9,214 bases of DNA from Candidatus Cloacimonadota bacterium (GTDB lineage: Bacteria > Cloacimonadota > Cloacimonadia > Cloacimonadales > TCS61): the NCBI GenBank assembly GCA_030596265.1, contig JAUVKM010000064.1, positions 1 through 9,214 on the forward strand, given 5' to 3'. Within the stretch, counting starts at the first letter, position 1; each line of letters begins with the position of its first letter. The position numbers were made by a program, and so were the translations under genes. Of the stretch, positions 3,004 through 9,214 are shown in pieces. A model generated the notes under the pieces. It saw only the letters and a list, made by a program, of their open reading frames with translations, ran no database searches and was not told where the DNA came from.

Positions 3004-3345
3004 ATGTTAGGAACAAATTTGAAGCACATTAAAAGTGTTGAGGAATTCAACGAAGTTATTGAAAGTAATGAAAACGTGATGATCTGTTGTGGTAGAATGG
3101 GGCCGATGTGTCTTCCTGTTTACGATGTTATGGAAAATCTGGAAGAAAAGTATGAAATGGTGAAATTTTTCGATATGGATTTTGATGATCCGAATGCTCA
3201 TATTCTGAGAAATCATGAATTAGCAAGAGGATTTATGGGTCTTCCATTTACATTCTATTATAAAAATGGAAAAGCTGTGAAAGCTACTACCAGTATTCAG
3301 AATAAAAAGCAGATCAAAACATTAATAGAAGAGCATTTGGTATAA
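3004..3345 (+). CDS. atypical thioredoxin-like protein (CCGRMGPMC active-site region)
   Basis: This 113-residue cytoplasmic protein has a thioredoxin-fold pattern: an N-terminal helix (SVEEFNEVIE), a beta strand ending at the active-site turn, helix PVYDVMENLEEKY, strand MVKFFDMDFDD and the cis-Pro loop GLPFTFYYKNGK with Pro81. The active-site turn is unusual. Instead of WCGPC it reads CCGRMGPMC, with Cys28, Cys29 and Cys36. The Met-Gly-Pro-Met-Cys part puts Met where the nucleophilic Cys normally stands, so the redox pair is uncertain (perhaps Cys29-Cys36). A strong AAGGAG five bases upstream fixes the start. It lies between a TDT channel and trxB, so TrxB is the natural reductant partner. 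The turn resembles, from memory, NCBI's thioredoxin-like (seleno)protein family SaoT; I cannot check this. No in-frame TGA is present. Confidence 0.75.
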   Translation: MLGTNLKHIKSVEEFNEVIESNENVMICCGRMGPMCLPVYDVMENLEEKYEMVKFFDMDFDDPNAHILRNHELARGFMGLPFTFYYKNGKAVKATTSIQNKKQIKTLIEEHLV

Positions 3346-4395: not shown

Positions 4396-4403
4396 ATTTA
4401 TAT

Positions 4404-4430
4404 GAAGGCGGAATATCCGCCTTTTCTTAT
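4404..4430 (+). terminator. intrinsic terminator after trxB
   Basis: AAGGCGGA (4405-4412), a three-base loop and TCCGCCTT (4416-4423), then TTCTTAT. The eight-bp GC-rich stem with a T-rich tail starts nine bases after the trxB stop. It separates unit 1 from the DUF1858 fusion gene. Confidence 0.85.
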
Positions 4431-4440
4431 AACCTGTTAA

Positions 4441-4473: not shown

Positions 4474-6195
4474 ATGATAATTTTAGGTAAAACAAAAATT
4501 AGTGTTGCATTAAAAGAGCATCCTGAATTAAAAAAAGTTTTAATGGGTATGTCTCCAAAATTCAGCAAATTAGAGAACAATAAAATATTCGGGATCGTAT
4601 CAAAATGGGCAACTTTTAATGACGTTGCAAAAGTGGGGAAGATCTCAATTTGTGAATTGCTTCATACATTAAATAATGAAATTGGAAATGAAGATAAATT
4701 ATATCTATCATTTCCTGAATGTATAAAGGAATTAGAGAAGAAGAAAAGTAAATCAGTTAAACCTACTTGGATAGATGAAATAAAACAGCTTGTTATTTTT
4801 GATGTACGAGAGCTTGATAGTTTCTTTCTTCCAAAAATAATCGAGAAACAAAAAAAACTGAAGAAGGATCAAACTTTACAGGTAATCAACGATTTTGATC
4901 CGGTACCTTTAAAAAGAATGTTGGAAGAAAATGGGAATACTTTCTATTTGGAAGAATTAAAAAATGGTGAATTTCATCTTTTCATCAAATATAAAAAAGC
5001 AGAAAAACTAACCAACGAGAATTGGAAGGATTATGTTGAGCAATTTGAAGAGATCAATGCTATAGGAATGAAAGAAGATCCGTTTGAATTAATCGTGAAA
5101 AAAGCTCAATCATTACAGCAAGGTGAAGGTTTTGTACTAAAGCAAATGTTCGAACCTACACCACTTATCAATATGCTTACAGGAATGGGATTTGAATATT
5201 TCACTGAGCAAAAAGAGACATTCAGATTCTTCATCTATTTTTTCAAAACAGTTACTAAAGATAAAGATTCAATTCAGCAAACAGATAAAGTTTCTGTAGT
5301 TATCCAATCTGCTACTCCTATAACCTACCCAATTATTATGAAAATGTTACAATCAAAACGATTGATGGATAAAATTGAAATTAAAGAATTGAAAGTTTGG
5401 GAAAAGACGGAAAAACACATGGCTTGGGTTATGAATAAAAAAGCTGATATTACATTTTCGGCAGTAGCAGCAGCAGCTAAATTGTATCTTTCAGGTGTAG
5501 ATATAAAAATGTATTCCATAAATATTTGGGATAATTTTCATCTGCTTACGCGTGGTTATGATGCAAAAAACTTTGCAGATATCAAAGGTCATAAAATTAA
5601 TGTGCCACTCTTTAAACAGGCTCCTCCAATGGTTATGACAAAGCATCTAATTGAAGCGAATGGATATAATATTGATGACTTTGAATTTACTTTTGGAGAT
5701 CCATTTGGACGTCCTGAAGAGATAAAAAACGATTTTATCGCTGAGAAAAGCGATACCGTTCTGTTGCGTGAACCGGAAGCAAGTTATGCTATGTATAATG
5801 CAAAAGATGCTTATGAATCAATATCATATAGTCAACTTTGGAAAGAGGACGGTAATAAAATTGGTAACATTCCAAATGCAGGATTGATCTTTAAAGGTGA
5901 ATTTTTAAGAGAGCATCCTGATGTTGCTGAAGTATTTGTAGAGGAATTAGAAAAAGCTACAAAATGGGTTGTAGAAAACAATAAAGCAGCAGCAGAGATG
6001 GCATTTGATATAATGAAACACAAATCTGAGGAAGTGGAACTTTTCTTGAATAGAGCACATTTTGAGCATGTGAAATCAGATGAAATATTGGATGAGATAG
6101 TGCATTATTTGCAAGTACTAAACGATGGTGAAAAGTACGCCAAAGATAGTATTAAAGGCTTGTTTGAAGTAGACTTAAATGAACAAAAAAAATAG
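4474..6195 (+). CDS. cytoplasmic DUF1858-DUF2249-DUF2249-substrate-binding-protein-like fusion
   Basis: This 573-residue protein has no signal peptide or TM segment. Residues 3-66 fit DUF1858 (KISVALKEHPELKKVL, PKF, then ISICELLHTLN). Residues about 105-173 fit DUF2249 (VIFDVRELDSFFLPKII, then DFDPVPLKRMLEENG), and about 198-258 look like a second, diverged DUF2249 (EDPFELIVKKA, then FEPTPLINMLTGMGF). Residues about 272-560 resemble a nitrate/sulfonate/NMT1-type periplasmic binding protein: VSVVIQSATPITYPIIMKML, a helix with KKADITFSAVAAAAKL, then DTVLLREPEASYAM. Such domains normally work outside the membrane with an ABC permease; none is encoded here. Only Cys60 and Cys83 are present, so the DUF2249 units lack the catalytic Cys of TusA-like proteins. 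GGGAG five bases upstream supports the start. A cytoplasmic ligand sensor or carrier tied to the redox genes is a guess. Confidence 0.8.
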   Translation: MIILGKTKISVALKEHPELKKVLMGMSPKFSKLENNKIFGIVSKWATFNDVAKVGKISICELLHTLNNEIGNEDKLYLSFPECIKELEKKKSKSVKPTWIDEIKQLVIFDVRELDSFFLPKIIEKQKKLKKDQTLQVINDFDPVPLKRMLEENGNTFYLEELKNGEFHLFIKYKKAEKLTNENWKDYVEQFEEINAIGMKEDPFELIVKKAQSLQQGEGFVLKQMFEPTPLINMLTGMGFEYFTEQKETFRFFIYFFKTVTKDKDSIQQTDKVSVVIQSATPITYPIIMKMLQSKRLMDKIEIKELKVWEKTEKHMAWVMNKKADITFSAVAAAAKLYLSGVDIKMYSINIWDNFHLLTRGYDAKNFADIKGHKINVPLFKQAPPMVMTKHLIEANGYNIDDFEFTFGDPFGRPEEIKNDFIAEKSDTVLLREPEASYAMYNAKDAYESISYSQLWKEDGNKIGNIPNAGLIFKGEFLREHPDVAEVFVEELEKATKWVVENNKAAAEMAFDIMKHKSEEVELFLNRAHFEHVKSDEILDEIVHYLQVLNDGEKYAKDSIKGLFEVDLNEQKK

Positions 6196-6210: not shown

Positions 6211-6238
6211 TTGACATTGTGTAATATTTAGTTATATT
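6211..6238 (+). promoter_or_regulatory. promoter of the thioredoxin-glutaredoxin operon (conserved type)
   Basis: TTGACA (6211-6216), 16 bases, then TATATT (6233-6238): a good sigma-70-type promoter. It begins 16 bases after the stop of the fusion gene. The block 6207-6250 is the partner of 1827-1870, with 36 of 44 positions identical including AATATTTAGTTA. A perfect ten-base palindrome TTAATATTAA stands just upstream at 6196-6205. Confidence 0.7.
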
Positions 6239-6268: not shown

Positions 6269-6289
6269 ATGTTTTTGGATGACAACTGA
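6269..6289 (+). CDS. possible six-residue leader ORF (MFLDDN)
   Basis: ATG TTT TTG GAT GAC AAC TGA, preceded by AAGGA (6260-6264) with a four-base spacer. It lies in the leader between the promoter and the thioredoxin gene and overlaps the weak in-frame ATG at 6279. Nothing but the ribosome site supports translation; the codons show no amino-acid run of the attenuator type. Confidence 0.2.
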   Translation: MFLDDN

Positions 6290-6314
6290 AAGCAGATTCT
6301 TAATAGGAGAGAAA

Positions 6315-6668
6315 ATGGAACATTTAACAAAAGAGACTTTTCAGAAAAAAGTTTTTAATTATGAGGCAAGTAAAGATTGGAAATTTGAAGGTGATAAACC
6401 TTGTATTATCGATTTTTATGCAGATTGGTGTGGACCATGCAAACAAGTTGCACCTGTTTTAGAAGAACTTGCTAAAGAATATGAAGGCAAAGTAGATATA
6501 TATAAAATAGATACTGAAGATCAACAGGAACTGGCTGCTGCATTTGGTATTCGCAGTATACCATCAATGTTATTTTGCCCTAAGGATGATAAACCACAAA
6601 TGTCTGTTGGTGCTCTTCCGAAAGAGTCTATAGTAACAGCTATCAAAGATGTTCTTGAAGTAGTTTAG
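6315..6668 (+). CDS. trxA: thioredoxin (cytoplasmic)
   Basis: This 117-residue thioredoxin has the classical active site WCGPC at 38-42 (Cys39, Cys42), inside FYADWCGPCKQVAPVLEELA, and the cis-Pro loop GIRSIPSM with Pro83. It transfers electrons from thioredoxin reductase to cytoplasmic disulfides; trxB at 3472 is the likely donor. It has two further cysteines, Cys30 and Cys88. I placed the start at 6315, with AGGAG five bases upstream. The in-frame ATG at 6279 has no clear Shine-Dalgarno and would add twelve unaligned residues, whereas MEHLT matches the paralogue at 6946. The longer N-terminal segment before the fold (ETFQKKVFNYEASKDWKFEGDKP) is typical of Bacteroidota/Cloacimonadota-style thioredoxins. 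It is the first gene of an operon with a glutaredoxin and an exported thioredoxin. Confidence 0.95.
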   Translation: MEHLTKETFQKKVFNYEASKDWKFEGDKPCIIDFYADWCGPCKQVAPVLEELAKEYEGKVDIYKIDTEDQQELAAAFGIRSIPSMLFCPKDDKPQMSVGALPKESIVTAIKDVLEVV

Positions 6669-6945: not shown

Positions 6946-7374
6946 ATGAAGAAAATAATAGTGTTATCATTAGCATTAATGCTGATAATTCCATTGATTG
7001 CAGAAGAAATTAAGATGAAGCCCGAACATTTAACATTGGAAACATTTAAAGAGAAAATCTTCGATTTCGAGAATGAAACAGAGTGGAATTATAAGGGTAA
7101 AATACCAGCAATTATAGATTTTTATGCAGATTGGTGTGGACCTTGTAAACAAGTTGCACCAATTATGGAAGAATTGGCAATTGAATATGATGGGAAAGTA
7201 AAAATTTACAAAATAGATACTGAAGACCAAAAACAACTTGCAAGTATATTCGGAATTCGCAGTATTCCTTCAATCCTATTTATTCCGGTAGGAGAGCAGC
7301 CACAGATGTCAACCGGTGCACTTCCGAAAGAAAATTTTGTACAAATGATCGAGGAAATTTTTAAAGTTAAATAA
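6946..7374 (+). CDS. exported thioredoxin (Sec signal peptide), paralogue of the upstream trxA
   Basis: This 142-residue protein has a signal peptide, MKKIIVLSLALMLIIPLIA, with probable cleavage after Ala19, followed by a thioredoxin domain. WCGPC is at 63-67 (Cys64, Cys67) and the cis-Pro is Pro108 in GIRSIPSI. The mature domain matches the thioredoxin at 6315 at about 74 of 116 positions by eye, including seventeen identical residues around the active site, so this is a tandem duplication. It has lost the two extra cysteines (Cys30 became Ala55, Cys88 became Ile113) and keeps only the catalytic pair, as expected for a periplasmic protein. AGGAG five bases upstream fixes the start. It ends the operon. 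No DsbD/CcdA-type transmembrane electron donor is encoded in the window. Confidence 0.9.
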   Translation: MKKIIVLSLALMLIIPLIAEEIKMKPEHLTLETFKEKIFDFENETEWNYKGKIPAIIDFYADWCGPCKQVAPIMEELAIEYDGKVKIYKIDTEDQKQLASIFGIRSIPSILFIPVGEQPQMSTGALPKENFVQMIEEIFKVK

Positions 7375-8700: not shown

Positions 8701-9214
8701 TTATTTAGAATCGTTAATAACTAATTCTGCATAATAACCATCTTCAATTCGTTCCATTTTATACCCACGGCTTTTAAACATGTGCTGCATAATGTGATTT
8801 GTTGCCATAACATTCGCATAGATCTTTTGAATTCCTCTTTTCAGGGCAATTTCTTGAATGTAATCTGTGAATTTATTTCCAAGTCCCAGATTGTGCCAAG
8901 GATCAGCAATAACAATTGCATATTCTGCAGTTTCATTATATTGATCTGCGATCAAACGAACTACACCAGCCATTTTCTTTCTGCCATCTTCTTCAACTTC
9001 GGCAATAATGGCAATTTCACGATCATAATCAATCTGTGTATACCGAACAAGCTGTTCATGGGAAATATGTTTTATCAGTTGGAAAAAGCGGAATCTTTGA
9101 GTACGTTCGGAGAAATTGGAGAACATCTCTTTTTCCATAAATTCATCTTCTGGTTTGATCGCTCTCAGAATTACTTTCTGTCCATTTTTCATTGTGTATT
9201 CGGTAGTGAATTCA
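8701..9214 (-). CDS. C-terminal GNAT domain of a probable Pat/PatZ-type acyl-CoA synthetase fusion (runs off right edge)
   Basis: The frame is open from the right edge to the stop at 8701: the seven codons before the ATG at 9192-9190 (EFTTEYT) carry no stop, and that ATG has no Shine-Dalgarno, so it is probably internal. Numbered from that Met, the GNAT domain shows KNGQKVILRAIKPEDE (2-17), a segment ending YTQIDYDREIAIIAEV (51-66), then MAGVVRLIADQ (74-84), Glu90 in AEYAIVIAD and the acetyl-CoA loop WHNLGLGNKF (99-108). The TQIDYDRE stretch is characteristic of the C-terminal acetyltransferase of Pat/PatZ, where it follows an ADP-forming acyl-CoA synthetase-like part and acetylates lysines of acetyl-CoA synthetase and other enzymes. 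The acetyl-CoA loop has His in place of the usual first Gln/Arg. A stand-alone GNAT cannot be fully excluded without the upstream DNA. Confidence 0.8.
   Translation of the reverse strand, partial: EFTTEYTMKNGQKVILRAIKPEDEFMEKEMFSNFSERTQRFRFFQLIKHISHEQLVRYTQIDYDREIAIIAEVEEDGRKKMAGVVRLIADQYNETAEYAIVIADPWHNLGLGNKFTDYIQEIALKRGIQKIYANVMATNHIMQHMFKSRGYKMERIEDGYYAELVINDSK

Follow-up and report, generated by a model that had tools for sequence, protein, structure and literature searches.

The window analysed here, a stretch of 9,214 nucleotides from a Candidatus Cloacimonadota bacterium (contig JAUVKM010000064.1, assembly GCA_030596265.1), harbours a gene encoding a fusion of DUF1858, two DUF2249 units and a substrate-binding protein (SBP) fold (Table 1). 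The original prediction had assigned these domains to the open reading frame (ORF) by eye, and Pfam searches and fold comparison confirmed the assignment, the last part being a type-II SBP fold. This part scores 17.0 bits with the Pfam model NMT1, below the threshold of 20.5, and 34 with the NCBIfam model SsuA_fam, where 163.5 is needed. In bacteria, the SBP fold is normally used outside the cell, where it catches nutrients. An ATP-binding cassette (ABC) ATPase domain was found neither in the window protein nor among the families matched in 32 representatives.

Table 1. Features of the fusion gene and its flanks in the window
Feature	Position	Strand	Support
Whole fusion gene, 573 amino acids, DUF1858 - DUF2249 - DUF2249 - SBP-fold domain	4474..6195	+	
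DUF1858 domain, residues 6-63, all helical, contains C60	4489..4662	+	Pfam E 5.9e-9
C60 codon	4651..4653	+	
C83 codon	4720..4722	+	
DUF2249 unit 1, residues 109-172, beta-alpha-beta-alpha-beta-beta, TusA-like, cysteine-free	4798..4989	+	
DUF2249 unit 2, about residues 190-260, fold as unit 1	5041..5253	+	Pfam: two stretches
Type-II SBP-fold domain, about residues 270-570	5281..6183	+	
Hairpin then T-rich tail, between trxR and the fusion gene, read as terminator	4404..4424	+	
Promoter-like site TTGACA-16-TATATT, between the fusion gene and the next thioredoxin gene	6211..6238	+	

The fusion is a conserved family, sparse across several phyla. In a search with scoring restricted to the 7994 candidates that had most words in common with the query, 517 proteins matched the fusion protein, and the best 120 of the 517 reach down to 43% identity. 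Source names among the listed matches include Cloacimonadota, Marinimicrobia, KSB1, Calditrichaeota, Spirochaetota, Halanaerobium and Bacteroidota. The nearest named relatives of the window protein are Cloacimonadota (92% identity), and the copy at locus L001 is 91% identical. Eight of 124 genomes in the phylum of genome G001 match at E<=1e-15, with three full-length copies, one decayed copy (G002) and four partial ones. At E<=1e-60, matches were found in 4/103 genomes of a phylum inferred to be Thermotogota (one of the four broken), 5/392 of a phylum inferred to be Spirochaetota, and 1/2 and 1/1 genomes of two small phyla. Mixed genome samples, which overlap the phylum sets, gave 7/289 and 6/390 genomes with a match. 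The excerpts of the literature searched contain no description of this architecture.

Sixteen loci carrying the fusion were read, namely the window, L001, L002, L022-L029 and L063-L067. The Tenebribacter burtonii copy (L002, 8001-8899) is decayed, with stops interrupting the SBP half and nothing found before about residue 250, and the Marinitoga copy (L028, 8134-10010) is divided into two ORFs. DUF1858 was matched in all 32 representatives and DUF2249 in 30 (E<=1e-3); a Halanaerobium variant of 487 amino acids possesses a single DUF2249. An N-terminal ferredoxin is added in nine of the sixteen loci (L023, L025-L029 and L065-L067), called by cysteine motif and confirmed by Pfam for L025. Six loci, the window included, lack it, and L002, whose front half was not found, cannot be judged. 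Among the aligned top-scoring proteins the ferredoxin is present in just 3/97, and among the representatives in 1/32. With the SBP part alone as query, 31 proteins were retrieved at 1e-5, mostly fusion members and shorter proteins starting inside the fusion sequence. Two proteins, P0123 (320 amino acids) and P0124 (315 amino acids), resemble the SBP domain alone, have no signal peptide, and could be standalone cytosolic copies or fragments. No exported SBP was present among the eight short SBP-part matches whose starts were read.

The prediction of an intracellular SBP domain without transporter partners is supported. A hydrophobic N-terminus was detected by crude hydropathy in none of the 97 aligned members, and the position of the domain behind three others also speaks against export. 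A tblastn search with eight NitT-type permeases from related transport loci gave no match in 219 kb, made up of the window and 15 further fusion loci, several of which end close to the fusion gene; the positive control was recovered, and the ATPase did not serve as a separate query. Three NnrS proteins from such transport loci likewise gave no tblastn match in these 219 kb. Neither outcome that would have refuted the prediction was observed: an SBP fold is present at about residues 270-570, and the homologues show no sign of a signal peptide or of an adjoining permease.

Twenty-eight columns are invariant across the 97 aligned members, which span 40-74% identity to the window protein, and every one of these columns lies within the SBP domain. 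They include Q278, T281-P282, W309, E313, H315, W318, W352, N354-F355, P384-P385, F411, P414, R432-E433-P434-E435 and S437. In a comparison with 22 transport SBPs, E433 and P434 were common to all 22, W456 to 21, G470 to 18, A469 and S437 to 17 each, and W352 to ten. E313 and R432 were each found in one transport SBP, and Q278, T281, H315, W318, N354, R413 and E435 in none. C60 is kept in 93/97 members and C83 in 94/97; the window protein has no other cysteine, and neither of the two falls within a DUF2249 unit. Some members bear the JGI name NitT/TauT substrate-binding protein, which, together with the broken copies at L002 and L028, would fit a transport SBP that is wrongly annotated or in decay and now has no function. 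We consider this very improbable; it is refuted in the main by the conservation just described, and against it also stand the lack of a hydrophobic N-terminus in the members and a domain order that is constant across phyla.

When a profile of 13 front halves was used as query, standalone proteins of 267-274 amino acids with the same domains were retrieved. Among these, P0161 aligns with DUF2249 proteins of Thermus across 99% of its own length (E 2e-34 for the top entry listed). In strain JL-18 of T. thermophilus, two DUF2249 genes follow those for nitrate reductase and an MFS transporter, and the matching gene is the second of the pair; excerpts of PMC6282519 assign this position to drpB. The same excerpts present DrpB of Thermus thermophilus as a cytoplasmic regulator of nitrate respiration, composed of DUF1858 and two DUF2249 domains. 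Alignment of the 13 front halves to DrpB with hhalign gave 99.1% probability over positions 2-253 of 259 against 9-269 of 273, at 25% identity. By this alignment, the front half of the fusion is collinear with DrpB and is classed as DrpB-like, a resemblance that the original prediction had overlooked. Related domains appear in similar settings elsewhere: DUF2249 genes of Haloferax mediterranei are induced under denitrification (PMC11218638), and one DUF1858 gene of Bradyrhizobium belongs to an NnrR-dependent list (PMC6710368). With TIGR03980, the Hcp-associated redox-disulfide DUF1858 model, the window protein was unlisted at E<=1, and one of the 32 representatives matched (8.4e-4).

Neighbouring genes were identified mostly by eye from ORF starts, with Pfam applied to ten proteins from fusion and other loci. 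Thioredoxin genes adjoin the fusion gene in 4/16 loci, all of Cloacimonadota (the window, L001, L002 and L023), the first three of which are near relatives. The hairpin between trxR and the fusion gene lies in a region (4396-4436) of -14.3 kcal/mol and z -4.6; the hairpin is absent from the list of a separate signal scan. The promoter-like site downstream is the best match of 21 found in the window, where shuffles gave 20.9. Together, hairpin and promoter-like site argue weakly against co-transcription, and the fusion gene is probably not co-transcribed with the thioredoxin genes. The partnership with thioredoxins proposed in the original prediction was therefore not supported as stated, and a thioredoxin operon as a general rule was rejected.

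The window also encodes a thioredoxin-like protein with CCGRMGPMC in place of WCGPC (3004-3345; Pfam thioredoxin score below the cut-off) and a thioredoxin pair (6279-6668 and 6946-7374), in which a glutaredoxin separates an apparently cytoplasmic member from one whose start resembles a signal peptide. Similar close pairs were present in L001, L002 and L023. A GNAT-like end (8701-9192, by eye) runs towards the window edge; its full counterpart in L001 (3805-6486) is an 893-amino-acid protein resembling ADP-forming acyl-CoA synthetases. Downstream, L001 possesses a hemerythrin and PAS_10 protein (8168-9403); excerpts of PMC6282519 state that hemerythrin domains also pair with DUF2249. Hydrogenase- or complex-I-like clusters were seen by eye directly before the fusion in L064 (10385-19001) and a few kilobases away in L022 (1602-12202).

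Genes for oxidative or nitrosative stress lie near the fusion in 2/16 loci, L022 and L023, both of Cloacimonadota. L022 possesses Rrf2, cupin and ChaN genes, and on the opposite strand those for ferritin, desulfoferrodoxin, peroxiredoxin, rubrerythrin and a flavodiiron-type protein. In L023, ChaN and Hcp genes are adjacent and Fur is near, with rubrerythrin, peroxiredoxin, desulfoferrodoxin and ferritin further off. No common neighbour was seen by eye in the remaining fusion loci. In another genome of the phylum of G001 (L031, 474-3144), desulfoferrodoxin-like, DUF2249 and Hcp-like genes stand in a row, as judged by eye, the DUF2249 protein falling just below the Pfam cut-off and having a longer, unassigned second half.

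Plasmid-borne transport SBPs that match the SBP domain of the fusion are found mostly in clusters of SBP, permease, ATPase and nnrS genes. Among 23 plasmid records, of which 14 were opened and the other nine (H12, H17-H22, H24 and H30) come from the same or related organisms, nnrS lies beside the matching SBP in twelve, hcp in one (H2) and neither in one (H26). The Paraclostridium SBP matches 59 records, 40 of them listed; of those outside the 23, seven were opened, with nnrS in one (H58), none in five (H42, H43, H48, H57 and H71) and no annotation in H34. The difference between 12/14 and 1/6 has a Fisher p of 0.007; the plasmid records are related, so this comparison is not clean, and it includes no generic NitT SBP as control. 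The recurrent NitT-type cluster was observed on plasmids of Campylobacterota and Alphaproteobacteria (L034, L036-L043, L046-L048 and L051), frequently accompanied by a TonB receptor and in one case by ChaN. We read it as a transporter tied to NnrS, for which the excerpts of the literature searched hold no description.

These clusters speak for another role of the fusion, in which it would carry or scavenge a product of nitrosative or oxidative stress in the cytoplasm and would stem from SBP stock common with the nnrS-linked ABC transporter. The ChaN genes of the two Cloacimonadota copies, with cupin, Rrf2 or Fur, Hcp, desulfoferrodoxin, rubrerythrin or a flavodiiron-type protein nearby, agree with it, as do ChaN and cupins beside the transport SBPs. 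Nevertheless, this role appears improbable, with stress genes near only two of the sixteen loci. NnrS as a partner in the same genome was rejected, nnrS being present in 0/15 fusion genomes against 1/61 controls; the controls lack the fusion and belong to the same phyla, two of the fifteen have broken copies, and genome completeness is unstated. An Hcp partnership as a general rule was also rejected, with a match to Prismane, a Pfam model that takes in CO dehydrogenase too, in 10/15 fusion genomes and 43/61 controls (p 0.76). Although the nnrS-linked SBPs are among the best plasmid matches, the tree does not support an SBP domain nested among them: a very long branch, of 1.8 changes per column, sets the fusion clade apart from the nnrS-linked group. 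The nitric-oxide link to the fusion is only suggestive. A bolder proposal, which we regard as speculative and hardly probable, is a single protein that, coupled to ferredoxin, would sense or convert a nitrogen oxide or another small molecule of redox origin in the cytosol. Its SBP domain, distantly akin to the nnrS-linked SBPs, would have been captured by a DrpB-like regulator of nitrate respiration, which would give anaerobes that lack NnrS a soluble substitute.

Our preferred reading, which we hold tentatively and at somewhat less than even likelihood, is a cytoplasmic regulatory protein responsive to ligand and redox state, that is, a cytosolic ligand sensor placed on a DrpB-like regulator. 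The SBP domain would close on a small ligand, as proposed for the SBP-like regulatory domains of NrtC and CmpC. Whether this domain stands open or closed would be relayed to the DrpB-like half, with DUF1858 and the two TusA-fold DUF2249 units, which in turn may bind a regulator or an enzyme as its partner. Redox state may be read or set via C60 and C83 and, in some relatives, also via the fused [4Fe-4S] ferredoxin. The observations behind this reading are the fold, the domain order, the collinearity with DrpB, the lack of any sign of export or transporter, the conserved polar residues and cysteines, and the ferredoxin fusions. Ligand sensing is the simplest role for the SBP domain because it is cytosolic and attached to a regulator-like module, and because NrtC and CmpC offer a precedent. 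The ferredoxin of relatives and the two cysteines suggest redox state as an input or energy source. The redox link originally predicted holds in part, with ferredoxin in nine of the sixteen loci and near-invariant cysteines on the one side, and the rarity of ferredoxin among the top-scoring proteins on the other. The proposed intracellular sensor or carrier is plausible and in part supported: the intracellular placing without a transporter stands, and the thioredoxin neighbourhood is confined to one lineage.

Several points weigh against a ligand-responsive regulator. The fusion protein lacks an output domain, be it for DNA binding, kinase activity or another function, and no partner gene conserved across phyla was seen in the sixteen loci. 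Thermus NarG (part), NarH, NarI, the MFS protein and DrpA gave no tblastn match in these loci, in a search without a positive control. At about 25% identity, the role of the DrpB-like half may differ from that of DrpB. Ferredoxin fusions are commoner in enzymes than in sensors, and the invariant E313, H315, R432 and E435 could equally be catalytic. The main rival is accordingly a cytoplasmic SBP-fold enzyme that receives electrons from fused or free ferredoxin, or from thioredoxin via C60/C83, with DUF2249 and DUF1858 as a transfer arm for electrons or an intermediate; it holds this place because enzymes with the SBP fold are known and catalysis would fit the invariant polar residues. We consider it unlikely, although clearly less so than a scavenger. 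No enzyme family model matched, no conserved metabolic neighbours were seen, ferredoxin is missing from six loci and from 94/97 top-scoring proteins, and the TusA cysteine is absent, so that a persulfide could not be relayed in the way TusA does it.

Both DUF1858 and DUF2249 are common, biochemically uncharacterised domains that are repeatedly tied to nitrate respiration and denitrification. Their fusion to a ligand-binding fold, sometimes with ferredoxin, means that finding its ligand may reveal the input of the DrpB module. That several anaerobe groups join an SBP fold intracellularly to a DrpB-like module, and sometimes to an electron carrier, suggests a type of chemical sensor inside the cell that has so far not been studied. 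Moreover, a NitT/TauT transport name in an anaerobe genome can belong to a protein that is cytoplasmic and has no transporter.

Among known systems, the TusA/SirA sulfur carriers share the beta-alpha-beta-alpha-beta-beta fold with the DUF2249 units. The sulfurtransferase motif of TusA contains the CPxP cysteine, which the units of the fusion lack. Thi5, MqnA/MqnD and DszB, which are cytoplasmic enzymes, share the fold of the SBP domain at 9-14% identity; they are not known to have ferredoxin or DUF2249 partners. The NnrS-linked ABC SBPs (NitT/TauT; Arcobacter, Sulfurimonas, Rhizobium and others) are among the best transport-type plasmid matches and have E433-P434 in common with the fusion. However, they are apparently exported and accompanied by permease, ATPase and NnrS, whereas the fusion clade stands apart with its own invariant residues. 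NrtC and CmpC, the cyanobacterial nitrate and bicarbonate transport ATPases, contain cytoplasmic SBP-like regulatory domains according to excerpts of PMC6603209 and PMC11349869. Similar to the fusion, these have the SBP fold without export, but they are fused to the ABC ATPase of their own transporter, while the fusion has no ATPase domain or nearby permease. DrpB is cytoplasmic and has the three domains in the order of the fusion, with collinearity over nearly the full length. In contrast to the fusion, which continues for about 300 residues with the SBP fold, DrpB ends at about 270 amino acids; its gene and drpA follow the nar operon, whereas the fusion loci yielded no nar relative, and C60 and C83 are not common to both in the hhalign alignment. 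The fusion is best seen as related to DrpB-like regulators and to cytoplasmic SBP-like sensors, and as a member of neither.
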